A stretch of DNA of 64,000 bases from Desarmillaria ectypa (Eukaryota; Basidiomycota; Agaricomycetes; Agaricales; Physalacriaceae). Made by a program: the position numbers and the translations under genes. The stretch spans positions 496,001 to 560,000 of the forward strand of contig JAUDYN010000010.1 of assembly GCA_030407005.1 (NCBI GenBank), read 5' to 3'. Shown here one piece after another: positions 13,451 to 58,256 of the stretch. The notes beneath the pieces are model-generated. The model was given only the letters and a program-made list of their open reading frames with translations. It was not told where the DNA came from and made no database searches. Numbering within the stretch: the stretch's first letter is position 1; every line of letters begins with the position of its first letter.

Positions 13451-13622
13451 CCCGTTTTACACAAGATATCCAGCAAAGTTGTCGCATGTTGGAGATAATT
13501 CCACATGATAACAAGCGATAATTTAAATGTCCCGAAACCTCATGCGACGCGTTACTCGTCGAAGTCGATCTTACATTGAACAGATTTATTAAAATCGTAC
13601 TTTAATACTTCAGTGCCCAGCC

Positions 13623-31799: not shown

Positions 31800-32179
31800 A
31801 ACACTAAATTCAATGGTCCGTGAGCATTATGCTAATGAAAATAAAAAAATAATTGTCGAAGAATAAATAAAGAACTACACTGGGAGCCGCTCCTTTACTC
31901 TGCAACCCAGTTAATTTAACGCCTTCCGGGCGAAGCGCTGGCACCCTCCCCACAAATCAGACCGTTCGGCTTAAGTTGACCAGAAGGTATGTCGGCTGTC
32001 CTACCTAAATTATAATTGTAACTCATTCATAGACTAGATAACTATCCTTCTTCTACCATGATGAACCCATGCTATTCCCTCGAAGAAGGTGCGCTTGTTG
32101 ACCGGCGCGTCGAGCATGCTAACGAGTAAATTTTTAGCGCACCGCGTACTGACGACACCTGGAAGGTTGTTGAAGAATG

Positions 32180-32660
32180 AAAAAACTATGAAAGGCTATA
32201 ACATACCAAAAGGCTACGTAGGGACGCGAAGGGTGGACACCTGCGACCACACGTTCTTTTTCCATGCTTAGTACCGTATGAGCATGTCGTTCGTTCTACA
32301 GGAGCGGGTTGAGTATCCTGGTGGACAGTCAGGATCGACAGTCTCATGTAAGGCATGGCAAGGACGCTGTGAAACGTTGAGCCACGTCGACCGGGTGGTG
32401 TCGTGGTGGGTGAACCCACTGGCTCTTCGGGTATGCGTCTAGCTGGATTGGACATCCTCGGATCCTCGCCACGTCTGGCGCGCTCTCCTGATGACATCGC
32501 CGTTTGGTGAGGAGGTACGATTTCGAGGGCGTGGGTTTAGGCCTGGTGTCGCTAATCCTGTTGTATATTCTGGATGAAATACAGGTAAGTTTCAGTACAC
32601 TTGCAAATCAAGGACAGATACTAACATATCATGTTGGACGGATGTATTATTCCCTTCTCT
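32180..32660 (+). repeat. Interspersed repeat R1 (left arm)
   Basis: Matches 12995-13450. The minus strand here carries a 103-codon open frame, 32186-32497 (start MSSGERARRGEDPRMSNPAR, Pro-rich), of unknown origin. It is preceded on that strand by the 45-bp core also found upstream of the 38403 gene. Confidence 0.75.
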
Positions 32661-32994
32661 GCGCTCTTCAATCCGAAGACCTGCCAGAACGACCAACGTA
32701 CATACGTACATTGACCTCCTGTTGACGATACCGATGCCATCTTATCAAATACTGGTTTATCAATGGAAGTTCCTGTAGGGACATGCGAATCTGGTATCGC
32801 TTCAAGGATCTATCTTATACTTTAACTTTATCCGGAAGACCGGGGTCGGTCGATTAAAGCGAGATGAACCTATAACTGTACGACTCTGTTTAAATCTGAT
32901 CTCCAGTAAGCCTTCCGGTTATCTCCAACGTAACTGATTCATAAGCATCGAACGACACTGCACCATCCTAGAATAAGAGCTTCGGAAAATCAGC

Positions 32995-33900
32995 CTATTC
33001 TTTCCTTGTCCTCGTTGCCCACTCTCTGGGCTACCACCCGTACCTGCGTTTTAATAAATTTCCCAGAGGACGTGTGATCTGTGGCTCAATCTTCGATACA
33101 AAACATATTCAGCCAAACAATACGATGCTCACCGAAACCACGACCATACAAAATGATCATCACCGGAACGGCATATTGGGGCAACCTTTTCAAACGGATG
33201 ACTTTTAAGTTCCATAACCGGAGCATAGGTACACTTACAGTTTCTCGGCAGTCACCATGAGTTTCTCCTCATTGATTAATCCGTCATACTCAGGCTTGAG
33301 GGTAACCAACGCTACAGGCAACTCCCCCACATGCTCATCAGGTACGCCAACTACCGCTGTTTCCAATACACCCGGTTCGGTATACAGGGCGTTCTCGACG
33401 AAAACGGAATCCTATGTATTCCAGGGGTACTCACAACATTATAACCAGCCCTAATGATGATATCCTTGATCCTGTCTGTAATGTAAACCTAACCACCTTC
33501 GTCCATTCGTCCCAGATCACCGGTCATCAGCCATCCATCTTCAGTGATGACCTATATCAAAAGGTAGTCGCCACAATCACCTGTAAGTAAGGGGTCCTAC
33601 CTGTTCAGTAGTAGCTGCAATGTTGTGAGTCTGTTTACTTATGAAATAAACGACCTCCAGACCAACCTTTATCGCCATAATACCCTTTCATCACATTCGG
33701 ACCGCGAAGCCAAATCTCTCCCACTGCTTCAGGCGGAGCTTTGACGCTGTCTTTCATTATCAGAACCTCATTGACAGGAAACGCCAAACTGCTAAATTCG
33801 AAACAGCCTAGATACCAGAGAAATAAAACAAACAGACTCACCAGCTATCTGGCCTTGCATCGTAATCCAGTCCACCTGGGAGCAGATCAGGACTCTGCTG
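32995..33900 (-). pseudogene. AMP-dependent acyl-CoA ligase, fragment E (left arm)
   Basis: C-terminal part only, nearest to copy A. It begins at LDYDARPDSW (33900) and runs through [82 protein letters not shown] and [18 protein letters not shown] replaces the Tyr codon in the GG-Y-VYIT block near 33487. The final SGK segment is damaged (THVLWEIY then a stop). The ATP-binding domain is absent, so this is a truncated and disabled copy. Confidence 0.8.
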
Positions 33901-34065
33901 TTTAAGAAAGCGTCTTCTCTTGCCGGACATCGATAGATGTACAGATCTGTTAATTACCGGGATTCCATAGAAGGATCGTGGGAAGTTTGAATGTCGGCCG
34001 TTATTTTATAAAAGGGTAAATATATATATATGTGCGTTTCACATCATTGTACGACATCCCAGTAG

Positions 34066-34720
34066 GATGTCGGAAAGTTCACCCTCCATTCCTCATCTTA
34101 TCCCGTCCTTCTTGAAATCCCAGAGGATGTTTACTCATGCTGAAATATCTGATTCAACGTGTCGCATACCCACCCCCATATGCTACCTTGCTGCTATGAG
34201 TCTGTACGGCGTGATGGAGCTCTTCCATATTCTGGTCATCAGCAGATAATACTGCGTAACAACGAAAGCCCGAGGCGTTCTCGAAAGTGTTTTGTGCCTT
34301 GCTGGATGACTCTGACAGACAAGAGACCAACTGGTCCTCACTGAGGAAACTCTGGTAGATATTGAGCCACTCGTCGTGTCCAAGCTGCATAGCCTGGAAC
34401 GCCTTCTTTGCTTCCTAAAGCAAATTCCGGGCTTTTGGTCTGCGCAGAATGGCCTTCTGGATGACATCCCAGATATCACGTCCTCAGTCCGTATTTCACG
34501 TAGGACAGATTATGAAAGCCCTTGATGTGGATTGGGTGGACAGTCATCAACGCTACTGGGAGTTGATTTGTTGCTTGCATGGCACTCGTCGGTTGAGCTG
34601 AAGTAGTTAGATGGAATCCTAGTCTGACACGGTAAGTTCCTCCCAGAGTATGTCGCTATCGGCACTATTTAATTATGTGTTTCTGAATGTCATACATTAG
34701 CAGGCAGGCATCCGAGCTGC
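34066..34720 (+). pseudogene. Decayed paralogue of the 247-residue unknown gene (left arm)
   Basis: Collinear with the gene at 37610-38403 but on the opposite strand. Matches include ESSPSIPHLIPSFLKSQRMF, PICYLAA, the block coding PGFWS, and the final intron (GTATGT...CATTAG). Frame changes and missing segments make it non-coding. With 37610-38403 it forms a smaller imperfect inverted repeat inside each arm. Confidence 0.65.
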
Positions 34721-34953
34721 TGGGAGATTGGCGGTTGATGGAGTTCTGGCTCAAATGTACTAGTGCGGGCTTTTGGATTCGAACTGGCAGCCTTATTTGA
34801 TTCTTTCATGCTCTATATTTCTGGGGTGATACACGATAGGCTTCCCCAATTATTCAGTCTGCAAAGAAGCGGTCTACACTTTAGCTCTATTTGCTTCCCT
34901 TTTTTCGAACGCAGAGCAGGATTACTCCACATCTTTCTTTCTTCATTACCCAA

Positions 34954-36190
34954 ATGCGTTGGCGCATCATTCAGTGGAATACCGAAGACACAGCGGAGAG
35001 GGGGGAGAGCACGACTGTGCAGTATGATTACGGTCGCCTCCAGTTCTACCCATCTTCACATATCCCTAAACTCTCTCAGGTCGATGACCGATATATCAAC
35101 TCCATCCTCGACTCAGACGCAGACACAAACGGCTACAGTGGTATAGATGAGCTAATCAAAAAATTCGATGACCTTGCGACAGCGACAATGGAAATCCAGG
35201 GACAAATAATGCACGTATCTCCGTATCACCTATTTCTTGATCACTGTAATCATACTATCTATCTCGCTCAGTTTTATGTACCCATATCACAAGCTACAAA
35301 CCGTTTTGCGCTTAATACACCCAATTTCCATCGCCGTGGAGACATTGGAGCCCTCTTTTCGAAGGATCGCTTCTGGAGATGAGAATATGGAACAAAACTC
35401 TTCAATAGTATACTATGCGTCTATACGCATTGACGAGATTGGGAGACTATTGCGGGATTCGGTACGTTCTCGGCCTACATCTGTTATTAGATGTTCTTCA
35501 ACAGGATATTAGCAATTTTGGCTCCCTACCTTTTTTGCCGATGGAGGAAGGCCCTGCTGCGACATTGCTATTGGCATTGTGAGCATCGTAGCCCTCGTCA
35601 CTGGAGTCATGGGCGCTGTAATCGCCAAATACGCAGAGCTAATAAAGCTCATGGTTGTCACGACTGCCATTGTCACAGCGCTCTTATACATTCGGAGTAA
35701 GTGATTGTTCGTTGCTCTCCTCTTTCTATGATTGATGGTGATCTTTCAGGAGCTGCGCAGCTTGTCGGAAAAATAATATATATTAGAGATGCATTGTTCC
35801 AGGACATAGTAACGCTCATCTGGTCGTTTAAGAAGTTCGATGAGGTGTGGCGACGCCACGGTCTGGGGAGGCATGTGTCCCCTCAAGAAATACATCTCCT
35901 TTCCTTGCTGTACCACTATGTCAGTTTTATCTTGTGGCTCTTTGCATCATACTGATATGTTTTAGTTTCTATCAGGTTCAAAGAAGCTGATTAAGAAAGA
36001 ACGAGAATTGGCGCTTCGCTTTCGCTGGGATGTAGAATTCGCCACGCCAGCGCAGGCTTCTGCGATAAACATCCCAGTGTCTCAGCCGACGAAGAGTTCG
36101 GGTCATTCTTCGTCTCATGACAGGAACGGTGGCCGAACCACCATAAGAACTAATCTCGTTTCACGGTCTGTCATATTCGATCGTCGTTAA
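34954..36190 (+). CDS. Hypothetical multi-exon membrane protein (left arm)
   Basis: No family recognised. Proposed exons: MRWRIIQWNTEDTAERGES ... LATATMEIQGQIMH; LQTVLRLIHPISIAVETLE ... DEIGRLLRDS; QFWLPTFFADGGRPCCDIA continuing into IGIVSIVALVTGVMGAVIA and LMVVTTAIVTALLYI; then GAAQLVGKIIYIRDALFQD ... PQEIHLLSLLYHY; then KKLIKKERELALRFRWDVEF to DRR and a stop. Two hydrophobic segments in exon 3 are likely membrane helices, and the N-terminal part contains an amphipathic helix. The tail is Ser/Arg-rich. Introns are 45-60 bp with GT-AG ends, which is the main evidence. The start is uncertain. The arm copy at 53866-55102 is identical. Confidence 0.5.
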
Positions 36191-36392
36191 CATTCCAGTT
36201 TTTCAAATGTGCCTTCTAGTAATCGCAACACTCAGACTGCCGGATCATCACTAGAACTAGGCGAACTGCCTCAGCAGCAGGGGTGAAGTCACCGTGAACC
36301 GTTCAAGTAGACTTTCTCTTGACAACATTTCTGTACCGGCTATGCCTACTACTTTCCACATCTTTTTAAATAAGAATAAATAGCTAGCTTAG

Positions 36393-36560
36393 CCATAGAA
36401 ACTAGCCCTTCTTACCCTATCAGCCTTTCGACAGCGATCTCCCATTACGCGTACACGTATATTTTCTGGGAAGGCTTCATAAATCGTGATCGTGCTAGCT
36501 GTGTCCTAATAAGTATTCGATATAATGATTTGCATAGGTCAAGGATATGGCGACTGTACG
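36393..36560 (+). repeat. Interspersed repeat R2, empty of MITE (left arm)
   Basis: Matches 28335-28457 plus 28832-28885 without the MITE. The site reads CGATATAATGATTTG, where the other copy has the element between two TA pairs. Confidence 0.65.
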
Positions 36561-36621
36561 TTAGACTGTAGTAGAAGGCTGAAGCGCGCAAGGAGACACC
36601 ATTTTTTTCTGTTACGGGCCG

Positions 36622-36822
36622 TCAGTCTAAACTGATTACATCATTCTCAGGATCTAAATCCTTGACTGAGGCTGCCTTTTTAGATCCAACTCGACCGCTC
36701 CAGTCACCTAATGCCTTCGTCCACCCCCGTTTCATGTGTTGCATCTCAGTAAAGATCCGCCGTTTGAGGAGAAATTGAGGTTGGTTGAGCGTCGAGTATT
36801 TGACTTGTTTGCACCGAATCAT
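36622..36822 (-). CDS. Short hypothetical ORF, 66 codons (left arm)
   Basis: Starts MIRCKQVKYSTLNQPQFLLK, basic and ending in an acidic DPENDVISLD tail. No domain recognised; it may be the last exon of a lost gene. It lies just beyond R2. The region 36830-37600 holds only another short open frame (37225-37446) that I cannot support. Confidence 0.25.
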   Translation of the reverse strand: MIRCKQVKYSTLNQPQFLLKRRIFTEMQHMKRGWTKALGDWSGRVGSKKAASVKDLDPENDVISLD

Positions 36823-37609
36823 TCAAAAGCGCGACACTGACTCGCTTCTATTCCAGCATCGTCGATTTCGCCAAGGTAGGCCTAGGGGTTAGAGTTATTG
36901 CTCATCTTTGCGGAAAGAGTTCTATTGCCTTCCAGTTTGCTTCCAGTGTGTATGCTTTTTTATTGCCTTTTGGTACATGAATGGCACGCCTCGATTGCCC
37001 GATGGAAGGATTTCAACAGGAGACTATGCTGCGACATGAGCGGGCTGATGCCCTCTTCCTTATCGGATACCTTTGGGAAGGGAAGATTATGCTTGCGCGA
37101 ATTTGGTTGGTGGTGGAATTACTAAAACCTTTTTTGTTTTGACTATGGAAATGCACATTATGACTTTGAAATCATCTTTTGATTCCCTAATCATGATTTT
37201 CAGCTCTTCTTTTGTCCATGTACCCTAATAGTACCAATACAAGAATCTTAACCCCCCCACCCCGTATTTCTTATCTCCCTCGTCTTCATCATTATCATCG
37301 ATAAAATACAACACTACCTTGCCTGCCCACCCTGACTCAGGTGGATTGTTTACAGCTGTACTTGATGCAGTAAAATTGCATAGCGCCCTCCAAAGTCTGC
37401 TTTCAATTCTCGCAGTCGGCAGTAGTAAATCTCTTGGAAGTTGCATGTATTTCTTTTCTTACAGTCTTCAACTGATCAGCATGTGTTGATGGAGCTTAAA
37501 AAAGGATGGGCCTGGGTGGGAGCGATCATAGAAGGCATATGATTACATTGTTCATCAAGGTCAATATTACCGAACGACACAGTAATAAGACCAGTGGCGG
37601 CACAGCGCT

Positions 37610-38403
37610 TTACCGATAACCCCATCGCTCCCAGAAGCTACGCATGCTAGTTGACATTCAGAAACAACAAGGTAAATAGAGCTGAGGAAGACATACTCGG
37701 GGAGGTACTGCCTCAGACTTTCATCAAAGCGCATACCATGTATCTGTTGCATCACGGACAATTCGATGTGATGCAAGCACCACATCAATTCCGGATAGCC
37801 TTCATGCCTGGCTACCCAATCCACGTCCTGAAAACAGGCCTTCATGACACCTGCATACCGCTCGAAATGCTCGAGACAGTCTACAATGGTCTTACATGAA
37901 CTACGAACTGAGAACATGATATCTGGAATGTCATCCAGAAGGTCAATCTTCCCGGACCAAAAGCCAGGAATTTGCTTTAGGAAACGAAGAAGGCGCTCTT
38001 GTCCGCGCAGCTCAGACTCGAGAAGTGGCTCGATTTCGACTAGTTTGGCTTCAATGGCAGGGACCAGTTGGTCTCTTACCTGTCGAAAGGCATCCAGAAA
38101 GTTGAGAAAGTGTTGGTTTTTTAGTAGGTTTTCGCCATCCAATATGCAGTACTTTCCGCCTACGAGCAAAAAGTGAAATGTTTCCATAGCCCGCCGTAGA
38201 GAATTGTCGAACCTCGCAGCGAGGTAACATATAGGGGTGAGTATGGGTACGGCTGTCGGTGGGGCGTAGTCCACGAAGTGTTGAATTAGGAACTTCAGAG
38301 CCTTGGAAAACATCCTCTGGGATTTATTGAAGGACGAAAGGAGATGGAGAATGGAGGGTCTTTCTGAGTGCATTCTTACACAGCCACCTTCAGAGGGTCT
38401 CAT
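37610..38403 (-). CDS. Unknown protein, about 247 residues (left arm)
   Basis: Not recognised. Start MRPSEGGCVRMHSERPSILH; the body is Leu-, Phe- and His-rich and looks helical (LLESELRGQERLLRFLKQIP, VDCLEHFERYAGVMKACF, MWCLHHIELSVMQQIHGM). A closing intron with GTATGT and ACTAG ends gives the final residues DMRSFWERWGYR and TAA at 37610-37612. Without splicing the frame runs on to 37567. A decayed paralogue with the same final intron lies at 34066-34720. Upstream on its strand is the 45-bp core shared with R1. No signal peptide or clear membrane helix. A sound reading frame with a homologue suggests a real gene, perhaps part of a mobile or selfish unit. Confidence 0.5.
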
Positions 38404-38505
38404 TATGTATCGAATCCCGATAAGGAATGTCTATTGTGGTATCGATTTCGAGGGCGTGGGTTTAGGCCTGGTATCGCCAGTCCTATTGTATGGGTGTAAT
38501 AGCAT
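38385..38505. promoter_or_regulatory. Shared 45-bp module upstream of the 247-residue gene
   Basis: Contains GATTTCGAGGGCGTGGG, TTTAGGCCTGG and CCAGTCCT-TTGTAT. The same string lies at 32510-32565 (R1, upstream of an unrelated minus-strand frame) and, diverged, at 13308-13360. Its position, upstream of two different frames in the same orientation, suggests a promoter or 5'-leader carried on a mobile repeat. The function is inferred. Confidence 0.35.
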
Positions 38506-38512
38506 CTAAAAA

Positions 38513-39177
38513 GTTCGACAACCCCACGAATTCTTTTCAACTCTGGTATCGGGTCTTCTGAACAGATTGACATAGTCTAATCTGGCTCGACGAGTTTGAA
38601 TGGATAGACCTACTCGTCGGGGAAGGGATTCATCTTTTCGGTTACGGTCGAGTCAGCCACTGAATTCAAAGCATCAACTCGGCCAGTGCCAATTCTACCA
38701 ACACTGAATTGTACAATGCCGGTTCAGGTATTCTCGCACAATCTGGTAAGTGTCTTAATGGTATCAAATGTTCCGTTTTGCTCAAAATTATTATGTTTTA
38801 GGGTCAACGCCTAGCATTCTGGACAAGCATTGAGACCAACAGAAACACTCGATACATTCAGGGAACTATTGCACCGAAGTATGCGTTTTCTTCCTTCTGC
38901 ATCTTCAGCAGTTACTCATGGTCGTTAATGTAGATCCAAAAATACGATTATCTGGAAGATCTACCTGACGCATGAGCTCACATCTAACGGCACGCTTGGA
39001 ATCACATCCGACGCTGGTATTGCTGGTTCTGACGTATGACCTTTCAGATTACAACTCTAGCACTGCTGCCAGTCAGCATAGCCCAGATTAGGACGGGTGT
39101 ACAGCAACAAAGGACGACTGTTTGACGAATGCTTCATATGGTCGTCGTTCGCGTGTGCATAGGAAGCGTCGATTAAC
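38513..39177 (+). pseudogene. Cellobiose dehydrogenase 3' fragment (left arm and beyond)
   Basis: 38513-39013 is identical to the right-arm part of the gene (pieces LYNAGSGILAQS|GQRLAFWTSIETN, YIQGTIAPK, IIWKIYLTHELTSNG). After 39013, 765 bp present on the right (50278-51042) are missing. 39019-39177 then matches 50119-50277 with about 25 mismatches, mostly transitions. There is no 5' half nearby. Dead remnant. Confidence 0.75.
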
Positions 39178-39723
39178 GGACTTCTGAAAACGGGCATATC
39201 AGTGTCTTGACGGCAGTGATGAAAGAAGACGCTCTGCTGGCAGAGTCTGTGACTTCTTTGTTTCCGGAAAGGGTTTTCTATGTCTTGCTGTATCTTGTAT
39301 GTCGGTTAGAAGCTATAGCGGGCCTGATATGAAGTCAAGTAGAGACAGCTACCTGAGCCATGCCTGGGACATTATTTTCAACGGAGTAAGTACTGCAGAA
39401 GGATGTCAAGTGCTGAACTGCTTCGTCTTCCCTCAGACGCGCATTTTCCACATCGTTCCATGTATTTTGTTGGATATCTGTCGCAAAGCTGCTGCGAACC
39501 GACAAACAAAATCTAACCAAAGACATTCCATATCAAACAACAAAGCCGGGGATCTTCATCGAAGCTTGGACAATGTCTGGCACCGCTTTTGAGGAATGTT
39601 AGGAACATGCTTATTGGAACATGTTTTATTATGAGATATTGTCGCGTCGGCCAAATTTAGCAACTACAGGAAAAAGAACAAAATCCCGACAAGGCGATCT
39701 TACCCAGCCCGCCTTTGACCACC
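39178..39723. other. Intergenic, no gene recognised
   Basis: Between the dehydrogenase remnant and the membrane protein gene. Short open frames only. Confidence 0.4.
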
Positions 39724-41130
39724 ATGAAGGCGATTCTCATCTTCGCGCTCTGTCTGCCCGCCTTTGCCGACGAAATCAAACATCGCCAGCTTATCCCGCC
39801 TGGAGCGAATGCAATTCCAACCACGTCGAGTAGTTACGACTACTGGTGGCCGTACCCTCCCGGAGGTATCGTCTCTACTACAACAACCACGCCAAGCACC
39901 ATTCCGTCTACGATATCCATAGAAGTCAGCGACATGCCACCAGATTCAACGGATTCGAGCAGTATCGTCTCTGCCTCCCGGCTGCCTTCAAGTTCAGATG
40001 ATACCAACAGCACCACGCGCAATAGCAATTCATCCTCGTCGACCTCTGTCATTCCTACATCATCGGTGTCCATGATAACAATCCCGGTCCCTTCCTCCTC
40101 TGAGCCCGCTCTTCCCAGCCTGGTAACATACCCTAAGAAGGAGCCGAGTGGAAACAAGATCAGTATGTATCTCATACCCGTCCTTGTGGTCGTCGGTGCA
40201 ATACTGGGAAGCTTATGCGCTTGGATTGGATGGGGATGCCTCACACGGAAAGGCCGACGAGGAAAGACAGAGCTCGAGGTAGGCCCGGCGTATGACTCGG
40301 AGGCGGGAAGAGTGAAGACCGACGAAGGATTTGCTTGGCCTGCAATGGAGACGCAGACACAGGAAAACACATTCCTCGTTCCTCCAACCAACCCACGGCG
40401 GACCAGACCTTTGCGTCCATCACGGGCTAACACTTCCTCCACTCAGGTCTCGCGTAAGAACACGACTACCACGATGGCCTCAGTGTCGGTCTATTCTCAG
40501 GTTGGAGAAGGAGACGAGGAATATGAGGAGAAGGATGGTGATGACGGCATGTCATTCCTGGACGCGTACGAGAGTGATGAAGAATTCATGGCGAGCGCCC
40601 GCAGACCATCATCACGTGCAGCTGGAGGAGGGACTCAACGCGTCGTGTCGAGACGTAGGAATCATGTACGGACCGATTCGGATATGACTGTCGAAGGCGG
40701 TAGGCTGGGGAGGAGCGTGACGGGGAAGAGCACAGGAGGATTTAGGATCGTAGAAGAATCACCGTTGCCTACGCCTGCCGTGACGAAAACTCCGTCTGGC
40801 GGCCGCGGTGGGTTTTTCTGGGGAAGTCAGTCAGAGAAGGACAAGTACACGGCGTTTCCGTCTCGTGGACAGAAGAGCCGCAGCCGCAGTCCAGTCAAGC
40901 CTTCTCGGACAGGCACTACGGCCAGCCAGAATCATCCACTCCCGCAGAGTCCTCGGCAGATCATGAGTCCTAAATTGGAGGGATCCTTGTGTTTTACGCC
41001 ATCGATAGGTCGGGAAATGAGCGGAAAAGGTGGTTCAGAGTACGATGACGCTCTTTCGCTGCGCAAAGTTGAAGACATCATTGGTAAATCACGAAGTCAG
41101 AGGAATCTTCGCATTGGAGGAGCCCGTTAA
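39724..41130 (+). CDS. Single-pass membrane protein with Ser/Thr-rich ectodomain
   Basis: One uninterrupted exon of 468 codons from ATG 39724 (context CCACCATGA). Signal peptide MKAILIFALCLPAFA; then an aromatic block YDYWWPYPPGG; a long Ser/Thr-rich stalk likely to be O-glycosylated; one membrane helix, MYLIPVLVVVGAILGSLCAW, near residue 155; a basic stop-transfer KGRRGK; and a cytoplasmic tail of about 290 residues rich in Ser, Arg and acidic patches (EGDEEYEEKDGDDGMSFLD). The layout resembles fungal wall-sensor or mucin-like surface proteins, but no WSC or other named domain is seen. A decayed duplicate lies at 43648-44995. Function unknown. Confidence 0.8.
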   Translation: MKAILIFALCLPAFADEIKHRQLIPPGANAIPTTSSSYDYWWPYPPGGIVSTTTTTPSTIPSTISIEVSDMPPDSTDSSSIVSASRLPSSSDDTNSTTRNSNSSSSTSVIPTSSVSMITIPVPSSSEPALPSLVTYPKKEPSGNKISMYLIPVLVVVGAILGSLCAWIGWGCLTRKGRRGKTELEVGPAYDSEAGRVKTDEGFAWPAMETQTQENTFLVPPTNPRRTRPLRPSRANTSSTQVSRKNTTTTMASVSVYSQVGEGDEEYEEKDGDDGMSFLDAYESDEEFMASARRPSSRAAGGGTQRVVSRRRNHVRTDSDMTVEGGRLGRSVTGKSTGGFRIVEESPLPTPAVTKTPSGGRGGFFWGSQSEKDKYTAFPSRGQKSRSRSPVKPSRTGTTASQNHPLPQSPRQIMSPKLEGSLCFTPSIGREMSGKGGSEYDDALSLRKVEDIIGKSRSQRNLRIGGAR

Positions 41131-41790
41131 CACGGCATTTTCGTTGATCCCACATACAGTTACTTTACACGCTCGATTTTCTTGAAAAACGTCAATGGTC
41201 GAACGTATGTAAGCGAGGAAACGATAAAGGACATACCCATAAACAGCCTGTTTGTCCTTGGGTTATTTGACTATCAGTGGTAAAGCTTTCAACAGTATCT
41301 ATGAGCCTAGTAAAATATTAAGAAGGAAAAATATGCATATATGCACACAAACGCACCCAAGTAGTTCAACACTGGACATCTTTCTGATCACAGGGCAATT
41401 GCTTGTAGAAAGAGCTTTCCATCGCGATGCCCATTGACAATTCGGTCGTAGTAAGAGAACGGACGGGCTGTCTTACGTATAAGGCAGCCTACATTTCATA
41501 ACCGAACCCTTCAGTTATCCTGTCACTGTCGTATATACAAGGAGCGACGACGAGCACATACCGAGTCGCCTGTCCTCCTCTCCACCAACCACTGTTCTCG
41601 GTCCCGAGTTGCTCACTTCCGGATCCGCAATGGTCTCGTCGTTATCGGTGTTAGCGGCAGATACCCTGGGGCGCGCCCGTGGTATAAATATTGACATGAT
41701 GGAAGAAACGAAAGAAGAGATGTCACCGACAGGCAGCACTTTGGACCGGCAGTGCATGTTCATTCCCACCCATCACCGTCTTTTTCGTTG
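41131..41790. other. Intergenic
   Basis: 3' flank of the membrane protein gene and 5' flank of the next gene. The sequence at 41515-41769 is open on the minus strand, without recognisable content. Confidence 0.35.
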
Positions 41791-42591
41791 ATGCCTGGCT
41801 TTTCGCTGCCGTGGTCGCGCGACGTCGTCGACGACGACCCGTCACCCTGGGAGAGAGGCGTACCGACACCGCGCTCGACAGTCGGGTTTTTCTACCCACC
41901 ACCTTCATCTTCTATCCCACCGGTACCGACAGACCTGCCCAACAATATTATGATATCTTCTTCTAATAACGTCCATACCGACGCCCACGCTCCTTCACTA
42001 CCCCGTAATTCGACTCTCCAAGTACATGAAAAGGCTGCGCAGAGAGTACTACCTCTGCCCTGGCTGCCGTCGATGACCGTTTTCCAGACATGTATTCTCC
42101 TTTTACTCTTCCTACCGCTCCCACCGCTGTTTTCCACCGTATACGCCGCCTTAGGACGGGCTATTCTCGGTGGGCACGTCCCAGTTAGGTCCTTCGCAGA
42201 AGCAGGAGCGACTGGGGGCGCCATACTGGCGCTACCACTCGCCCTCGCAATCTGGATACTGTTGGCTCCCGAGAAGCAATCCCCTAGGGAGGATTTTTTC
42301 GATGATGACGAACCCCAGACGTGGTGGACTCGCTGGGGAAAATTCGTGCCGTGCGGGTTTATGCTGGTCCTTGTCGGCGTCGCCGCTTGCCCCTTGGGTG
42401 CCGTTTGCATCACGGAAGCGAATAGCAGAGGCTTGAAAGCAGGTAAAGCAGCATTGGCGGCCCTGGTCGGGGGGGTCGTTTTTTGTAGTGGTTTGGTGGT
42501 TATTTTGGCATTGGCGGTTTTGTCGTATCGGCAATACGCGAGGAGGAGAAAGTGGTGGGCACTCTTCATTATTCATGCATACCTTCTCTGA
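41791..42591 (+). CDS. Hypothetical multi-pass membrane protein
   Basis: About 266 codons from ATG 41791 (MPGFSLPWSRDVVDDDPSPW). The first ~100 residues are Pro/Ser-rich and probably cytosolic. Then come four hydrophobic segments: VFQTCILLLLFLPLPPLF, GGAILALPLALAIWILLA, FMLVLVGVAACPLGAVCI, and AALVGGVVFCSGLVVILALA. The acidic loop REDFFDDDEPQTWWTRWGK lies between the second and third. No family recognised. A single exon with biased composition and coherent helices supports it. It is codirectional with the neighbour at 39724. Confidence 0.6.
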   Translation: MPGFSLPWSRDVVDDDPSPWERGVPTPRSTVGFFYPPPSSSIPPVPTDLPNNIMISSSNNVHTDAHAPSLPRNSTLQVHEKAAQRVLPLPWLPSMTVFQTCILLLLFLPLPPLFSTVYAALGRAILGGHVPVRSFAEAGATGGAILALPLALAIWILLAPEKQSPREDFFDDDEPQTWWTRWGKFVPCGFMLVLVGVAACPLGAVCITEANSRGLKAGKAALAALVGGVVFCSGLVVILALAVLSYRQYARRRKWWALFIIHAYLL

Positions 42592-44995: not shown

Positions 44996-45538
44996 TTTGA
45001 CTTCATATAGCATGCGCTGACCGTACATAAATAATTATGGGACCTGCACTTCCACGCGAACCCTCAAGAGCTCCAGCGGTGTACGCCCCACGTAAATACA
45101 TCTATATCGTGATTATACATCAGCACTAACCAAGTGGTAACGGAGACGCTGACTGCTGTGCAGTGTGCGACTCAATGCTTGATATCATGATCAGATGAAC
45201 ATATCTGCATCCTTGGTACACAGCACGACACATCTTCGGACATCGGTTTTCAGTGCGTGACTCGGAGACTGTTTACTGGGGGGCTGTTTGCTACGCAGAA
45301 CTCTGATAAAACCTTGTCTGGAAATATTCTCTCTTAGAACCTACAGATAATAGTATTCGGCCTACTAGTTCTTAAAAAAAAACCTTAAACACAACTTAAC
45401 ACAACGGATGCAAAATAGATGCGGCCTTGCTAGATTCAAAAGTTCTGAAGGTGGCTTCGTCGTTACGTAACGAAGTACTTCGGGCCGGTCCCTCGAACCG
45501 TCGATTCGGTTTGAACGCTCATTTCCTTCAACATCCCA
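44996..45538. other. Intergenic, contains the symmetry centre of the inverted repeat
   Basis: The axis (45028) has no palindrome of its own; the sequence is unique. No gene recognised. Confidence 0.4.
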
Positions 45539-48500: not shown

Positions 48501-50123
48501 CCCATCTGTACACACCTCAAAAACAAGTTAGAACTAATTTTGACGGCATCTCAGAGAGCCCGAGATATGAAAGCGAGTGCACAAAGGGAAAATATACCCG
48601 AGGTCGAAGCACGATCGACCTGGGATGTGCTACTAGGCATTGCGAATGATATACCTCACAACGGCGATATACATTTTCGGTGGGTCTGTTGGAAATCAGC
48701 TCTTAATTTTCACTAATATAACATTCCGATTCAGCCTTGAGCGAATGATTAAGCTGCCTCGAAACGATGAATATGGCGCATCCCCGGAGGTGGTCCAGAA
48801 TTTGAGAGATATGCGCTTAGCTTGGATGACTGACTCTCGGGCGCTTGCTCAGCGTGCGCTCAATATTGGTGGCGAAGAAGGTCAACGCTTGTCTGCTATT
48901 GCGCTGGCCTCTGTCCGTTTTTTGAGTAACACCCGTGCCTATTAACTGGGTCCAAATTTGGCTCCAATAGAACCCAAGGAGGCCAAGTGTGACAGCCTGG
49001 TCACACTTACACGTCTCATTTTCCCCACAGCCACTATGACAACCACGCAACGGTCTCGTCTCAGAATGTTATCTTTGGTTACTCAGCCCACTCGCGAGAA
49101 GAAGGCGACTGTCAGTCGTACCCCCATCTCATCTTCACGCCAGGATGATTACCTGCACGCATTCAACACAAATGATATCATTGTGACTTCTCAGCAACAA
49201 GTCTCCGTTGACTGCAGCGCCACAGAGACATCACTGCCGGCCTCTTCAACACTACCGGAAGGCCCTTTACAGGCGTTACATAACAGCAACGATGTTCCAA
49301 TGGCCCAGGACAATGACTCGGGAATGACTGCTTCAGTTTCCAGTGCCAAGGAACCCTCCATTGCCGGCGCTTTACTTTTCGTTTTATGTATAAATGAGAA
49401 CAAAAAGTTTCTTGAAAGTGCTGGGAAGAACGGCGTCAACCAAAGCCGCATGGACCTTGTGGCCTGTCTCAAGTTCCTTGCCGCTGTTGGGATCACCAAT
49501 TTCCCGGTATACAGTGTCATAACCGATGGCACTTTGGGTACCATTGTGAGTGCCCATGTGAAGGATCTCTGTGTATGTGTTTTCTCTGTGTGGCTTATCT
49601 GTGTCAAACTTACATTTCGGTCCAGGAGGGGAGCATTTACGAACACAATGTAAGAACATTTGACATTTCGAACCCTGTTGATGCCCTCAATGTCGCCACG
49701 TTCATTACTTTCATTTCTACCGAACATGCATAATCATCGCGGGAATTACTTTCTGTGCAAAGACTACGAGAACTTACAGAGAAGTTGGACCAGGATCACC
49801 CTTCCCTCCACTGGACGATGGAACACCAGTTTCCTGCGGTCAAAAGACCGCGGTGTCTTCTTAGATACTAGCTATGAATATACTGCATATGGTTTCGTCT
49901 CATGTGGCTTGAATGTAGTCTCAATATCAAGCTTTCAACAGCGATCAATATCTCTGTGGTTCTGACCAAATTCGACATACAATGTTGTGAAGAGCCCAAT
50001 CCCCTCGGTGTGATACTCCTGGAGCAAACAAAGACTCCAAAGAAGTCGGCTAAACTCTGCTGGGAAAATCTCCTCAAAAATTCAGTTAACACATCAAAGC
50101 GAATTACTGCACCCAAATGTTAG
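45539..50123 (+). pseudogene. Long unknown Agaricomycete gene with in-frame stops
   Basis: Many exons, from MAAFWSDARNVTLHLDTDEV through IDELAKPDADRSSQFIPPPR, an acidic Ser-rich linker (46130-46460), ASTLYQRHVWKIKQPTMGI, PPVHAVRIATLNHPSGVFDL, SALDQR-like and LERMIKLPRNDEYG parts, FVLCINENKKFLESAGKNG, FLAAVGITNFPVYSVITDGT, and VRTFDISNPVDALNVATFIT. A TAG at 46588-46590 and a TAA at 49731-49733 interrupt frames that remain coding in the same phase on both sides (GTHDTI*GMLASTLYQRHVW; STEHA*SSRELLSVQRLREL). I do not recognise the domain; the family looks like the large unannotated Agaricomycete proteins with a C-terminal nuclease-like fold, but that is only an impression. Splitting into two or three genes is an alternative. 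The last open exon ends at 50123, overlapping the end of the dehydrogenase remnant. Confidence 0.45.
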
Positions 50124-51543
50124 TTGATGTTTCTTATGCACGCGCGAACGATGACCATATAAGGCATTCGTCAAATAGTCGTCCTTCGTCGCTGTATACC
50201 CGTCCCAGTCTGGGCTAGGCTGACCGGCAGTAATGCAAGAGTTGTAATCTGTATGACCATACATCAGAACCAGCAATAGCATGTAGAATCAGAATCAGGT
50301 AGCGTACTGTTCCAGCAGATATTAGCGTTAGTAATAGTGGAAGAAGCGACCGTGCTTCTGCTTGTTTCAGTGGAGCTCAACCCGACTGAAGAGGATCCAG
50401 CGGCAGATGAGGTCGAAGACCCGATCAGAGTAGGAGCAGCGGACAAAGGTTTGACGGAGGTTCGAGTAGTAGGTAACGACTCAACAGAGATCGCTCCGGT
50501 AGAACTCGAGTACGAGGCTGTCGCGTTGAAACTTCCGGTATTCGCTGAAGCGGAGGTAGTCGTCGAATTCGAGGACACCGTATAGGCGATAATATTCTCC
50601 GCCGCTTTCTCTGCGACAATCATGACAACAGTCTTAGAAATAATTAGACGATGCAAACATGTTATTAACTACCTGGATATTGACGACAAGAAGATCTGTA
50701 TGAATCGAAGCATCATCGATGAACTGCAAACATAGCTGAGTCCTACTGGTAATGACAATGAAAGGGTGCTCACAAGGTTATCTGTACCCCAGACCCTAGT
50801 ATCCGTATCCACTACGGAACTACCATCATTGCTCTCGCCCATCTTGAAGCTCGCAGCCCAATGCGCACCCGTAGTATAATTCTCGATCAAGCTCTCGACG
50901 GTGATATTGTCCCTCGAGAGAGAAGTAATGCTCAGTTCACTGAATCTATCTATGTAGCTGATGAGCGTTTCCATAAAACTTGTGATAGTGACCTTATAAT
51001 CGTCCGTCGTGAGCCAGGGCGACTTGACCAGCATCGTACTGCCGTCGGATGTGATTCCAAGCGTGCCGTTAGATGTGAGCTCATGCGTCAGGTAGATCTT
51101 CCAGATAATCGTATTTTTGGATCTACATTAACGACCATGAGTAACTGCTGAAGATGCAGAAGGAAGAAAACGCATACTTCGGTGCAATAGTTCCCTGAAT
51201 GTATCGAGTGTTTCTGTTGGTCTCAATGCTTGTCCAGAATGCTAGGCGTTGACCCTAAAACATAATAATTTTGAGCAAAACGGAACATTTGATACCATTA
51301 AGACACTTACCAGATTGTGCGAGAATACCTGAACCGGCATTGTACAATTCAGTGTTGGTAGAATTGGCACTGGCCGAGTTGATGCTTTGAATTCAGTGGC
51401 TGACTCGACCGTAACCGAAAAGATGAATCCCTTCCCCGACGAGTAGGTCTATCCATTCAAACTCGTCGAGCCAGATTAGACTATGTCAATCTGTTCAGAA
51501 GACCCGATACCAGAGTTGAAAAGAATTCGTGGGGTTGTCGAAC
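50119..51543 (-). pseudogene. cdh: Cellobiose dehydrogenase, 3' half (separated from 5' half)
   Basis: Continues the gene at 58257-59921 after a ~6.7 kb interruption. From 51543: FDNPTNSF, LYNAGSGILAQS, GQRLAFWTSIETN, IYLTHELTSNGTLGITSDGS, KVTITSFMETLISYIDR, then GAHWAASFKMGESNDGSSVV and DTDTRVWGTDNL. These match the C-terminal GMC dehydrogenase region, including the catalytic-site His of the NHW-type motif (here AHW) and the VxGxxNL strand. AEKAAENIIAYTV then leads into a Ser/Thr-rich tail and NICWNSTLPDS. Stops lie in the stretch before LYNAGSG (51400-51520). About 60 residues between the two halves (LSAGA... to ...DNP) are missing. 51043-51543 is inside the right arm. Dead gene. Confidence 0.75.
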
Positions 51544-51550
51544 TTTTTAG

Positions 51551-51671
51551 ATGCTATTACACCCATACAATAGGACTGGCGATACCAGGCCTAAACCCAC
51601 GCCCTCGAAATCGATACCACAATAGACATTCCTTATCGGGATTCGATACATAATGAGACCCTCTGAAGGTG
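51551..51671. promoter_or_regulatory. Shared 45-bp module (right arm)
   Basis: Mirror of 38385-38505. It abuts the point where dehydrogenase similarity stops, so it marks one end of the interrupting block. Confidence 0.35.
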
Positions 51672-52446
51672 GCTGTGTAAGAATGCACTCAGAAAGACCC
51701 TCCATTCTCCATCTCCTTTCGTCCTTCAATAAATCCCAGAGGATGTTTTCCAAGGCTCTGAAGTTCCTAATTCAACACTTCGTGGACTACGCCCCACCGA
51801 CAGCCGTACCCATACTCACCCCTATATGTTACCTCGCTGCGAGGTTCGACAATTCTCTACGGCGGGCTATGGAAACATTTCACTTTTTGCTCGTAGGCGG
51901 AAAGTACTGCATATTGGATGGCGAAAACCTACTAAAAAACCAACACTTTCTCAACTTTCTGGATGCCTTTCGACAGGTAAGAGACCAACTGGTCCCTGCC
52001 ATTGAAGCCAAACTAGTCGAAATCGAGCCACTTCTCGAGTCTGAGCTGCGCGGACAAGAGCGCCTTCTTCGTTTCCTAAAGCAAATTCCTGGCTTTTGGT
52101 CCGGGAAGATTGACCTTCTGGATGACATTCCAGATATCATGTTCTCAGTTCGTAGTTCATGTAAGACCATTGTAGACTGTCTCGAGCATTTCGAGCGGTA
52201 TGCAGGTGTCATGAAGGCCTGTTTTCAGGACGTGGATTGGGTAGCCAGGCATGAAGGCTATCCGGAATTGATGTGGTGCTTGCATCACATCGAATTGTCC
52301 GTGATGCAACAGATACATGGTATGCGCTTTGATGAAAGTCTGAGGCAGTACCTCCCCGAGTATGTCTTCCTCAGCTCTATTTACCTTGTTGTTTCTGAAT
52401 GTCAACTAGCATGCGTAGCTTCTGGGAGCGATGGGGTTATCGGTAA
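51653..52446 (+). CDS. Unknown protein, about 247 residues (right arm)
   Basis: Identical to 37610-38403. Exons 51653-52359 and 52410-52446 (TAA 52444-52446). See the left-arm entry for its description. Confidence 0.5.
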
Positions 52447-53233
52447 AGCGCTGTGCCGCCACTGGTCTTATTACTGTGTCGTTCGGTAATATTGACCTTG
52501 ATGAACAATGTAATCATATGCCTTCTATGATCGCTCCCACCCAGGCCCATCCTTTTTTAAGCTCCATCAACACATGCTGATCAGTTGAAGACTGTAAGAA
52601 AAGAAATACATGCAACTTCCAAGAGATTTACTACTGCCGACTGCGAGAATTGAAAGCAGACTTTGGAGGGCGCTATGCAATTTTACTGCATCAAGTACAG
52701 CTGTAAACAATCCACCTGAGTCAGGGTGGGCAGGCAAGGTAGTGTTGTATTTTATCGATGATAATGATGAAGACGAGGGAGATAAGAAATACGGGGTGGG
52801 GGGGTTAAGATTCTTGTATTGGTACTATTAGGGTACATGGACAAAAGAAGAGCTGAAAATCATGATTAGGGAATCAAAAGATGATTTCAAAGTCATAATG
52901 TGCATTTCCATAGTCAAAACAAAAAAGGTTTTAGTAATTCCACCACCAACCAAATTCGCGCAAGCATAATCTTCCCTTCCCAAAGGTATCCGATAAGGAA
53001 GAGGGCATCAGCCCGCTCATGTCGCAGCATAGTCTCCTGTTGAAATCCTTCCATCGGGCAATCGAGGCGTGCCATTCATGTACCAAAAGGCAATAAAAAA
53101 GCATACACACTGGAAGCAAACTGGAAGGCAATAGAACTCTTTCCGCAAAGATGAGCAATAACTCTAACCCCTAGGCCTACCTTGGCGAAATCGACGATGC
53201 TGGAATAGAAGCGAGTCAGTGTCGCGCTTTTGA

Positions 53234-53434
53234 ATGATTCGGTGCAAACAAGTCAAATACTCGACGCTCAACCAACCTCAATTTCTCCTCAAACGGCGGA
53301 TCTTTACTGAGATGCAACACATGAAACGGGGGTGGACGAAGGCATTAGGTGACTGGAGCGGTCGAGTTGGATCTAAAAAGGCAGCCTCAGTCAAGGATTT
53401 AGATCCTGAGAATGATGTAATCAGTTTAGACTGA
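53234..53434 (+). CDS. Short hypothetical ORF, 66 codons (right arm)
   Basis: Identical to 36622-36822; weak candidate. Confidence 0.25.
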   Translation: MIRCKQVKYSTLNQPQFLLKRRIFTEMQHMKRGWTKALGDWSGRVGSKKAASVKDLDPENDVISLD

Positions 53435-53495
53435 CGGCCCGTAACAGAAAAAAATGGTGTCTCCTTGCGCGCTTCAGCCTTCTACTACAGTCTAA

Positions 53496-53663
53496 CGTAC
53501 AGTCGCCATATCCTTGACCTATGCAAATCATTATATCGAATACTTATTAGGACACAGCTAGCACGATCACGATTTATGAAGCCTTCCCAGAAAATATACG
53601 TGTACGCGTAATGGGAGATCGCTGTCGAAAGGCTGATAGGGTAAGAAGGGCTAGTTTCTATGG
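53496..53663 (-). repeat. Interspersed repeat R2, empty of MITE (right arm)
   Basis: Mirror of 36393-36560. Confidence 0.65.
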
Positions 53664-53865
53664 CTAAGCTAGCTATTTATTCTTATTTAAAAAGATGTGG
53701 AAAGTAGTAGGCATAGCCGGTACAGAAATGTTGTCAAGAGAAAGTCTACTTGAACGGTTCACGGTGACTTCACCCCTGCTGCTGAGGCAGTTCGCCTAGT
53801 TCTAGTGATGATCCGGCAGTCTGAGTGTTGCGATTACTAGAAGGCACATTTGAAAAACTGGAATG

Positions 53866-55102
53866 TTAACGACGATCGAATATGACAGACCGTGAAACGA
53901 GATTAGTTCTTATGGTGGTTCGGCCACCGTTCCTGTCATGAGACGAAGAATGACCCGAACTCTTCGTCGGCTGAGACACTGGGATGTTTATCGCAGAAGC
54001 CTGCGCTGGCGTGGCGAATTCTACATCCCAGCGAAAGCGAAGCGCCAATTCTCGTTCTTTCTTAATCAGCTTCTTTGAACCTGATAGAAACTAAAACATA
54101 TCAGTATGATGCAAAGAGCCACAAGATAAAACTGACATAGTGGTACAGCAAGGAAAGGAGATGTATTTCTTGAGGGGACACATGCCTCCCCAGACCGTGG
54201 CGTCGCCACACCTCATCGAACTTCTTAAACGACCAGATGAGCGTTACTATGTCCTGGAACAATGCATCTCTAATATATATTATTTTTCCGACAAGCTGCG
54301 CAGCTCCTGAAAGATCACCATCAATCATAGAAAGAGGAGAGCAACGAACAATCACTTACTCCGAATGTATAAGAGCGCTGTGACAATGGCAGTCGTGACA
54401 ACCATGAGCTTTATTAGCTCTGCGTATTTGGCGATTACAGCGCCCATGACTCCAGTGACGAGGGCTACGATGCTCACAATGCCAATAGCAATGTCGCAGC
54501 AGGGCCTTCCTCCATCGGCAAAAAAGGTAGGGAGCCAAAATTGCTAATATCCTGTTGAAGAACATCTAATAACAGATGTAGGCCGAGAACGTACCGAATC
54601 CCGCAATAGTCTCCCAATCTCGTCAATGCGTATAGACGCATAGTATACTATTGAAGAGTTTTGTTCCATATTCTCATCTCCAGAAGCGATCCTTCGAAAA
54701 GAGGGCTCCAATGTCTCCACGGCGATGGAAATTGGGTGTATTAAGCGCAAAACGGTTTGTAGCTTGTGATATGGGTACATAAAACTGAGCGAGATAGATA
54801 GTATGATTACAGTGATCAAGAAATAGGTGATACGGAGATACGTGCATTATTTGTCCCTGGATTTCCATTGTCGCTGTCGCAAGGTCATCGAATTTTTTGA
54901 TTAGCTCATCTATACCACTGTAGCCGTTTGTGTCTGCGTCTGAGTCGAGGATGGAGTTGATATATCGGTCATCGACCTGAGAGAGTTTAGGGATATGTGA
55001 AGATGGGTAGAACTGGAGGCGACCGTAATCATACTGCACAGTCGTGCTCTCCCCCCTCTCCGCTGTGTCTTCGGTATTCCACTGAATGATGCGCCAACGC
55101 AT
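53866..55102 (-). CDS. Hypothetical multi-exon membrane protein (right arm)
   Basis: Identical to 34954-36190, with the same exon model and two likely membrane helices in exon 3. Confidence 0.5.
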
Positions 55103-55335
55103 TTGGGTAATGAAGAAAGAAAGATGTGGAGTAATCCTGCTCTGCGTTCGAAAAAAGGGAAGCAAATAGAGCTAAAGTGTAGACCGCTTCTTTGCAGACT
55201 GAATAATTGGGGAAGCCTATCGTGTATCACCCCAGAAATATAGAGCATGAAAGAATCAAATAAGGCTGCCAGTTCGAATCCAAAAGCCCGCACTAGTACA
55301 TTTGAGCCAGAACTCCATCAACCGCCAATCTCCCA

Positions 55336-55990
55336 GCAGCTCGGATGCCTGCCTGCTAATGTATGACATTCAGAAACACATAATTAAATAGTGCCGATAG
55401 CGACATACTCTGGGAGGAACTTACCGTGTCAGACTAGGATTCCATCTAACTACTTCAGCTCAACCGACGAGTGCCATGCAAGCAACAAATCAACTCCCAG
55501 TAGCGTTGATGACTGTCCACCCAATCCACATCAAGGGCTTTCATAATCTGTCCTACGTGAAATACGGACTGAGGACGTGATATCTGGGATGTCATCCAGA
55601 AGGCCATTCTGCGCAGACCAAAAGCCCGGAATTTGCTTTAGGAAGCAAAGAAGGCGTTCCAGGCTATGCAGCTTGGACACGACGAGTGGCTCAATATCTA
55701 CCAGAGTTTCCTCAGTGAGGACCAGTTGGTCTCTTGTCTGTCAGAGTCATCCAGCAAGGCACAAAACACTTTCGAGAACGCCTCGGGCTTTCGTTGTTAC
55801 GCAGTATTATCTGCTGATGACCAGAATATGGAAGAGCTCCATCACGCCGTACAGACTCATAGCAGCAAGGTAGCATATGGGGGTGGGTATGCGACACGTT
55901 GAATCAGATATTTCAGCATGAGTAAACATCCTCTGGGATTTCAAGAAGGACGGGATAAGATGAGGAATGGAGGGTGAACTTTCCGACATC
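55336..55990 (-). pseudogene. Decayed paralogue of the 247-residue gene (right arm)
   Basis: Mirror of 34066-34720. Confidence 0.65.
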
Positions 55991-56155
55991 CTACTGGGAT
56001 GTCGTACAATGATGTGAAACGCACATATATATATATTTACCCTTTTATAAAATAACGGCCGACATTCAAACTTCCCACGATCCTTCTATGGAATCCCGGT
56101 AATTAACAGATCTGTACATCTATCGATGTCCGGCAAGAGAAGACGCTTTCTTAAA

Positions 56156-57061
56156 CAGCAGAGTCCTGATCTGCTCCCAGGTGGACTGGATTACGATGCA
56201 AGGCCAGATAGCTGGTGAGTCTGTTTGTTTTATTTCTCTGGTATCTAGGCTGTTTCGAATTTAGCAGTTTGGCGTTTCCTGTCAATGAGGTTCTGATAAT
56301 GAAAGACAGCGTCAAAGCTCCGCCTGAAGCAGTGGGAGAGATTTGGCTTCGCGGTCCGAATGTGATGAAAGGGTATTATGGCGATAAAGGTTGGTCTGGA
56401 GGTCGTTTATTTCATAAGTAAACAGACTCACAACATTGCAGCTACTACTGAACAGGTAGGACCCCTTACTTACAGGTGATTGTGGCGACTACCTTTTGAT
56501 ATAGGTCATCACTGAAGATGGATGGCTGATGACCGGTGATCTGGGACGAATGGACGAAGGTGGTTAGGTTTACATTACAGACAGGATCAAGGATATCATC
56601 ATTAGGGCTGGTTATAATGTTGTGAGTACCCCTGGAATACATAGGATTCCGTTTTCGTCGAGAACGCCCTGTATACCGAACCGGGTGTATTGGAAACAGC
56701 GGTAGTTGGCGTACCTGATGAGCATGTGGGGGAGTTGCCTGTAGCGTTGGTTACCCTCAAGCCTGAGTATGACGGATTAATCAATGAGGAGAAACTCATG
56801 GTGACTGCCGAGAAACTGTAAGTGTACCTATGCTCCGGTTATGGAACTTAAAAGTCATCCGTTTGAAAAGGTTGCCCCAATATGCCGTTCCGGTGATGAT
56901 CATTTTGTATGGTCGTGGTTTCGGTGAGCATCGTATTGTTTGGCTGAATATGTTTTGTATCGAAGATTGAGCCACAGATCACACGTCCTCTGGGAAATTT
57001 ATTAAAACGCAGGTACGGGTGGTAGCCCAGAGAGTGGGCAACGAGGACAAGGAAAGAATAG
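56156..57061 (+). pseudogene. AMP-dependent acyl-CoA ligase, fragment E (right arm)
   Basis: Mirror of 32995-33900, with the same TAG in the VYIT block (56569 region) and no ATP-binding domain. Confidence 0.8.
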
Positions 57062-57395
57062 GCTGATTTTCCGAAGCTCTTATTCTAGGATGGTGCAGTG
57101 TCGTTCGATGCTTATGAATCAGTTACGTTGGAGATAACCGGAAGGCTTACTGGAGATCAGATTTAAACAGAGTCGTACAGTTATAGGTTCATCTCGCTTT
57201 AATCGACCGACCCCGGTCTTCCGGATAAAGTTAAAGTATAAGATAGATCCTTGAAGCGATACCAGATTCGCATGTCCCTACAGGAACTTCCATTGATAAA
57301 CCAGTATTTGATAAGATGGCATCGGTATCGTCAACAGGAGGTCAATGTACGTATGTACGTTGGTCGTTCTGGCAGGTCTTCGGATTGAAGAGCGC

Positions 57396-57876
57396 AGAGA
57401 AGGGAATAATACATCCGTCCAACATGATATGTTAGTATCTGTCCTTGATTTGCAAGTGTACTGAAACTTACCTGTATTTCATCCAGAATATACAACAGGA
57501 TTAGCGACACCAGGCCTAAACCCACGCCCTCGAAATCGTACCTCCTCACCAAACGGCGATGTCATCAGGAGAGCGCGCCAGACGTGGCGAGGATCCGAGG
57601 ATGTCCAATCCAGCTAGACGCATACCCGAAGAGCCAGTGGGTTCACCCACCACGACACCACCCGGTCGACGTGGCTCAACGTTTCACAGCGTCCTTGCCA
57701 TGCCTTACATGAGACTGTCGATCCTGACTGTCCACCAGGATACTCAACCCGCTCCTGTAGAACGAACGACATGCTCATACGGTACTAAGCATGGAAAAAG
57801 AACGTGTGGTCGCAGGTGTCCACCCTTCGCGTCCCTACGTAGCCTTTTGGTATGTTATAGCCTTTCATAGTTTTTT
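57396..57876 (-). repeat. Interspersed repeat R1 (right arm)
   Basis: Mirror of 32180-32660; the plus strand holds the Pro-rich open frame 57559-57870. Confidence 0.75.
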
Positions 57877-58256
57877 CATTCTTCAACAACCTTCCAGGTG
57901 TCGTCAGTACGCGGTGCGCTAAAAATTTACTCGTTAGCATGCTCGACGCGCCGGTCAACAAGCGCACCTTCTTCGAGGGAATAGCATGGGTTCATCATGG
58001 TAGAAGAAGGATAGTTATCTAGTCTATGAATGAGTTACAATTATAATTTGGGCAGGACAGCCGACATACCTTCTGGTCAACTTAAGCCGAACGGTCTGAT
58101 TTGTGGGGAGGGTGCCAGCGCTTCGCCCGGAAGGCGTTAAATTAACTGGGTTGCAGAGTAAAGGAGCGGCTCCCAGTGTAGTTCTTTATTTATTCTTCGA
58201 CAATTATTTTTTTATTTTCATTAGCATAATGCTCACGGACCATTGAATTTAGTGTT

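Follow-up and report, generated by a model that had tools for sequence, protein, structure and literature searches.

The 64,000-nucleotide stretch of the Desarmillaria ectypa genome analysed here (the window; contig C2, positions 496001-560000, in a genome of 40,588,909 bases on 32 contigs) contains two long inverted repeats, or arms, around a spacer whose first gene encodes a Mid2-like membrane protein. Each arm carries a gene for a hypothetical protein (P0001), a diverged, apparently broken relative of the same family, a piece related to AMP-binding-like genes and the beginning of an exon for a GMC oxidoreductase, and an array of diverged AMP-binding-like genes lies outside the left arm (Table 1). 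The arms match at 7212 of 7214 positions (99.97%), and paired positions sum to 90056. The first-pass annotation had given their coordinates and this sum exactly and had called them apparently perfect; near-identity holds, strict perfection does not, since two transitions, three bases apart and 203-206 bp inside the outer edge, separate the copies. Its description of four different flanks is likewise right overall, with no homology between the outer flanks over the 2 kb compared, and wrong for the inner flanks, which share an old, colinear inverted homology (84%, 163 bp), here called the tail. That every other duplicate is strongly diverged is true of the window, where other duplicates are 72-92% alike and the remaining inverted matches reach at most 214 columns and at most 92% identity, and fails outside it, where two inverted pairs of at least 99.6% lie in the 200 kb to the right. 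Given the distinct outer flanks and the long spacer, unique over the part searched, we rejected a hairpin artefact of a missed adapter.

A genome search with 31500-39300 returned both arms and, elsewhere in the 40.6 Mb, only diverged pieces, so that one near-identical pair of this kind was found. A second search covered 39014-48800 (9,787 of the 12,029 spacer bases, with 48801-51042 outside it) and returned the sequence itself and the tail, with no further copy; both searches pass over very common words. The arms are thus two nearly identical inverted repeats with unique DNA between them, over the part of the spacer searched, and unique outer flanks. Long inverted ends around a unique core could also belong to a 26-kb mobile element with the arms as its terminal inverted repeats, or to an inversion cassette of the mating-type kind, but we find both very hard to credit. 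Neither genome search produced the further copies that such an element should have left (for the spacer, within 39014-48800), no transposase or recombinase was detected in the ten spacer frames tested against Pfam, a scan that did not take in smaller exons, no target-site duplication was seen by eye at the outer borders, and the gene that comes first in the spacer codes for an ordinary, conserved membrane protein. Mating-type families lie at least 0.8 Mb away or on other contigs: the nearest STE3 match on C2 is at 1393792, and homeodomain matches occur on C15, C23 and C31 only. Scans of the window for tRNA genes and Rfam families gave no matches.

Table 1. Features of the window, and paired matches elsewhere in the genome (the latter given as contig:position)
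Feature	Position	Strand	Remarks
Left inverted arm	31800..39013	+	7214 bp; matches reverse complement of 51043-58256
Right inverted arm	51043..58256	-	7214 bp
Sole differences between the arms	32003/58053 (A vs G); 32006/58050 (T vs C)		Left-arm strand reading
Spacer between arms	39014..51042	.	12,029 bp
Old tail, left	39015..39177	+	84%, 26/163 mismatches against reverse complement of 50119-50281
Old tail, right	50119..50281	-	Inverted homologue of left tail, colinear
Right-only segment	50282..51042	-	761 bp between tail and arm; left counterpart 1 bp
GMC oxidoreductase C-terminal exon	50672..51127	-	PF05199, E 1.3e-8; crosses right inner border
Arm gene (protein P0001, DFS33DRAFT_1490668), hypothetical protein	37570..38430	-	
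Second copy of P0001 gene, right arm	51626..52486	+	Mirror position, identical DNA
Diverged second member of P0001 family	34298..34506	+	Inverted to 37889-38101, 78.5%; apparently frame-broken (by eye)
Piece related to downstream half of AMP-binding-like array genes	32990..33891	-	Mirror 56165-57066; 74-84% to 2778-3722 and 8563-9493
AMP-binding-like array (about four diverged genes), beyond left arm	2778..19850	-	PF00501 in 3 of 10 frames tested
Mid2-like membrane protein, first spacer gene	39661..41127	+	Orthologues in Armillaria/Desarmillaria
Same-contig inverted RVT_2 pairs	C12:536959/551795; C32:2325994/2334857; C5:142239/174081; C2 and C30 pairs (see text)		
Same-contig inverted RVT_1 pair	C23:4234398/4240328		
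Same-contig inverted GMC pair	C3:1234001-1237000/1257886-1260885		
Direct equal-score pairs	C31:3068240/3078961; C1:475529/507486; C28:928243/1014264		

The tail offers a measure of age. Two differences in 7214 positions of the arms stand against 26 in the 163 positions of the colinear tail (Fisher p about 4e-42), and the two genome searches turned up the tail in no third place. On the right, the tail and the arm are separated by a segment for which no second copy exists in the window (tested as 50279-51042). Because the GMC exon continues across the right border and, judged by eye, truncated at 39013 on the left, it is the left side that probably lost this 761-bp piece. If the tail is part of the same duplication, the ratio of raw divergences would place the last overwriting of the arms in roughly the final 0.2% of the duplication's history, with a one-sided 95% upper bound of 0.5% that takes in the arm count alone. 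The arms are in that case more alike than their age allows, and what we see is probably an old inverted duplication that has been homogenised.

The same figures have to be weighed against a single recent inverted duplication, in which a template switch or break repair would have copied the 7.2-kb arm inversely into an older GMC-derived inverted repeat, with little time elapsed since. Two differences in 7214 positions and a single near-identical pair in the genome fit such an event, and the left arm is, in its outer part, a relative of the gene array that adjoins it in the same orientation, so that the left position looks native there. Both inner breakpoints would nevertheless have to fall in one GMC remnant in mirror orientation, and other inverted pairs in this genome, in which old, independent insertions have been made alike, would be left unexplained. 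We consider this account rather improbable.

The explanation we favour, with a probability of about 0.7, is that the window arms are an old inverted duplication held identical by gene conversion. The inverted arms would pair, one would serve to repair the other, and the interior would be overwritten; conversion would halt where homology is broken, inwards at the 761-bp insertion or deletion and outwards where the homology ends. A part of the repair events could resolve as crossovers and so invert the 12-kb spacer with no sequence lost. Deletion would tend to remove near-identical direct repeats, and this would account for the inverted orientation of the nearly identical neighbours described below. 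Conversion acting on these arms, as well as flipping of their spacer, is what we infer from the assembled sequence. Of the three options offered by the first-pass annotation (a very recent duplication, gene conversion that is still going on, or an assembly in which one arm served twice), the evidence favours gene conversion, because the tails are only 84% alike, against 99.97% for the arms, and because marks of conversion are found in two pairs of Copia retrotransposons elsewhere in the genome.

One of these Copia pairs came from a survey of 264 kb comprising the window and the 200 kb to its right. Duplicates of at least 1 kb and at least 99% identity amounted to three pairs there, the window arms among them, all three inverted; at a threshold of at least 90%, matches of at least 1 kb numbered five inverted and one direct, and the direct match and one of the inverted matches involve the same third copy of a sequence resembling a long terminal repeat (LTR). 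At C2:705324-710127 and 713985-718787 lie two Copia elements, inverted and alike from LTR to LTR, with RVT_2 matches in both, which differ from each other by 5 substitutions and 1 gap (99.9%). The two LTRs within each element, in contrast, show 30 differences in one case and 29 in the other over 303 aligned positions (about 90% alike), and this divergence is common to both elements. The LTRs of an element are identical at insertion; both elements must therefore be old. In addition, the five-base target-site duplications at their flanks, TTATC and ACAGA, are exchanged, such that the outer flank of one element is the inner flank of the other, assuming that the element extends two bases past the arm as aligned (these bases being CA for one element and TA for its partner, judged by eye). 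Two separate old insertions, later conversion between them and a spacer in exchanged orientation would explain these observations. A third pair, of 1.4 kb (C2:630515-631946 and 632312-633743), consists of inverted LTR-like arms around what by eye resembles a Gypsy chromodomain piece; it may perhaps be one rearranged element and hence constitutes weak evidence. The same neighbourhood holds an inverted pair that is 87% alike over 4.3 kb, with a 21-kb spacer and no homogenisation (C2:594404-598691 and 619595-623889), which looks ABC transporter-like by eye.

The second Copia pair lies on C30, with reverse transcriptase matches at 1764609 and 1782086 that have equal scores, frames and stop. Our sequence comparison of this pair took in its four ends (4 x 1501 bases). 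The outer 348 bp open to comparison differ at 32 positions (9%) and the inner 682 bp at 2; similarly, the 5' LTRs differ at 18 of 211 positions and the 3' LTRs at 2 of 211, while the LTRs within each element differ at 15 and 17 of 210. Since unlike outer ends accompany like inner ends, homogenised and unhomogenised parts must meet inside the elements, at a junction between the ends that were compared. The motif CTACT stands at the outer flank of one element and at the inner flank of the other. Taken together, the features of the C2 and C30 elements make gene conversion well supported in both pairs.

A genome-wide census asked less of each pair. We went by eye through 476 profile matches (52 GMC, 31 STE3, 7 homeodomain, 110 RVT_2, 106 P450, 150 RVT_1 and 20 AMP-binding), for which 92 of 346 P450, 150 of 632 RVT_1 and 15 of 92 AMP-binding candidates had been scored. 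Among the matches listed, ten pairs had the same score, profile range, frame length and stops. Of these, seven have both members on one contig, at distances of 5.9-31.8 kb, and are without exception inverted (one-sided p 0.008; Table 1); the other three join different contigs (C18/C23, C31/C32 and C23/C26). No fully matched pair appeared among the listed P450 (106), STE3 (31), homeodomain (7) or AMP-binding (20) matches. Equality in these values is no proof of equal DNA, which was compared over 3 kb for the C3 pair, in whole for the C2 pair and at the ends for the C30 pair. In-frame stops are common to both members in three of the six retrotransposon pairs, which makes fresh insertion less likely. 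The C3 pair, a GMC gene remnant with two stops, is 100% identical across the whole 3-kb query, and its arm is probably longer.

Several results weigh against conversion as the explanation. The orientation excess in the census is small: without the C2 and C3 pairs, which had been seen before the census, it comes to five of five (p 0.03). Three further same-contig pairs less than 100 kb apart have equal scores and unequal frame lengths, and all are direct; when these are added, 7 of 10 pairs are inverted and the excess is no longer clear. In the 264 kb surveyed, shorter matches (200-999 bp, at least 90% identity) are not inverted in excess, 7 being direct and 5 inverted, and nearby inverted pairs of 86-91% remain unhomogenised. 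In the C30 pair, the other target-site duplication can be fitted only by allowing an offset of one base. Moreover, the whole comparison draws on one assembly of one strain, presumably FPL83.16, which has been named as a sequenced strain of D. ectypa (PMC10700112). Finally, all differences in the three pairs of at least 99% identity sit 6-244 bp from the arm ends. This is expected under conversion, as the ends of homology would be copied least, and it is equally expected if a consensus step blurred the interiors.

The last point also speaks for an assembly effect, in which the arms are real but their interiors derive from one consensus, so that true differences are hidden and the orientation of the spacer is arbitrary. 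Differences in all three pairs near the unique flanks would follow, and since contigs would be broken or cut short wherever direct or dispersed repeats had collapsed, nearby inverted pairs would be the ones left visible, which is much what we observe. We nonetheless judge this improbable. There is no N in the window or in the next 200 kb, and 40.6 Mb in 32 contigs suggests long reads. The ends of the C30 pair differ by 9% beside near-identical parts, and assemblers should be able to separate such copies. Comparable yeast repeats agreed between the long-read assemblies of two laboratories for seven strains (PMC9731477).

If gene conversion is indeed what keeps the window arms alike, it is tempting to extend the argument to the genome at large. 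Any similar inverted pair within about 30 kb, transposons and genes alike, might be repeatedly overwritten and have its spacer flipped, with direct copies lost and small-scale inversion constant. We regard this generalisation as unlikely.

By structure and by its presumed homogenisation, the window locus would belong to a known kind, the flip/flop region. Salzberg et al. 2022 (PMC9731477) describe one on Saccharomyces chromosome XIV and propose that its repeats undergo conversion when they recombine non-allelically, some of these events being crossovers that invert the spacer. Both cases concern two nearly identical inverted repeats in a fungus (4.2 kb around a 24-kb spacer in yeast; 7.2 kb and 12 kb here); unlike the yeast case, in D. 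ectypa several inverted pairs, retrotransposons among them, look alike. The same source cites a region of the mammalian X chromosome that has inverted recurrently between homogenised repeats. That system resembles ours in having long inverted repeats kept similar by conversion together with recurrent inversion, and differs in kingdom and in the many species compared there. The genes at the mammalian inversion are reportedly FLNA and EMD. In Caenorhabditis, long near-perfect inverted repeats of gene pairs often show stronger conservation of structure than of sequence, which was taken to indicate active maintenance (Zhao et al. 2007, PMC1803023). The window arms are likewise long and nearly perfect; three species were compared there and one genome here. 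Inversions in Drosophila can arise by recombination between oppositely oriented transposons, with target-site duplications exchanged. The exchanged duplications of the C2 and C30 Copia pairs are of this sort; the window arms, by contrast, are not transposon-like and bear no such mark. Among the publications listed on gene conversion at palindromes or inverted repeats in fungi, basidiomycetes and Agaricomycetes, no title or abstract opening reported such a set of inverted pairs for a mushroom.

Inverted repeats that convert and flip have so far been known singly, in few organisms. Old retrotransposon pairs could act as clocks for these events, given that the time of insertion can be read from their LTRs, that of the last conversion from the sequence common to both copies, and a flip from target-site duplications that have changed places. 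With such clocks, the conversion and inversion of inverted repeats could be measured across one genome. Conversely, LTR divergence and paralogue identity can misdate duplications that lie close to an inverted partner.

The genes of the locus have a narrow set of relatives. Over the 82% of the reading frame that aligned, the protein encoded by the arms is identical to a D. ectypa protein. Eleven relatives of P0001 were listed, itself included, and all nine that carry a name are from Armillaria or Desarmillaria; relatives of the arm gene are 41-62% identical to P0001 at the protein level. A. borealis has two such copies, not identical to each other, on a contig or contigs of one size. The Mid2-like spacer gene has orthologues in seven further Armillaria and Desarmillaria species (76-89% identity), and both D. 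tabescens and A. fumosa have an arm-gene relative and a Mid2-like orthologue on contigs of equal size (580,855 and 1,318,760), which suggests that the two share one contig in each species. The spacer gene also has a direct paralogue (39812-41074 against 43670-44951, 66.6% DNA identity), seemingly frame-broken by eye. The C-terminus of the A. ostoyae protein P0003 (ARMOST_18056) resembles, by eye, the exon of GMC origin at 50672-51127, a hint that arm gene and GMC remnant may be adjacent in that species too. The AMP-binding label of the array comes from three PF00501 matches that all fall under the curated cut-off.

Some of the census matches bear on the make-up of the assembly. The matched family pairs C26:16330/C23:3230260 and C18:10020/C23:2930079 are perhaps alternative haplotypes. 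The STE3 matches at C9:5419-18129 resemble second alleles of the mating-type locus at C2:1519749-1537176, and the homeodomain matches at C15:5223-11305 resemble second alleles of that at C23:2463187-2469315; the C9 and C15 matches look as if two haplotypes had been sequenced.

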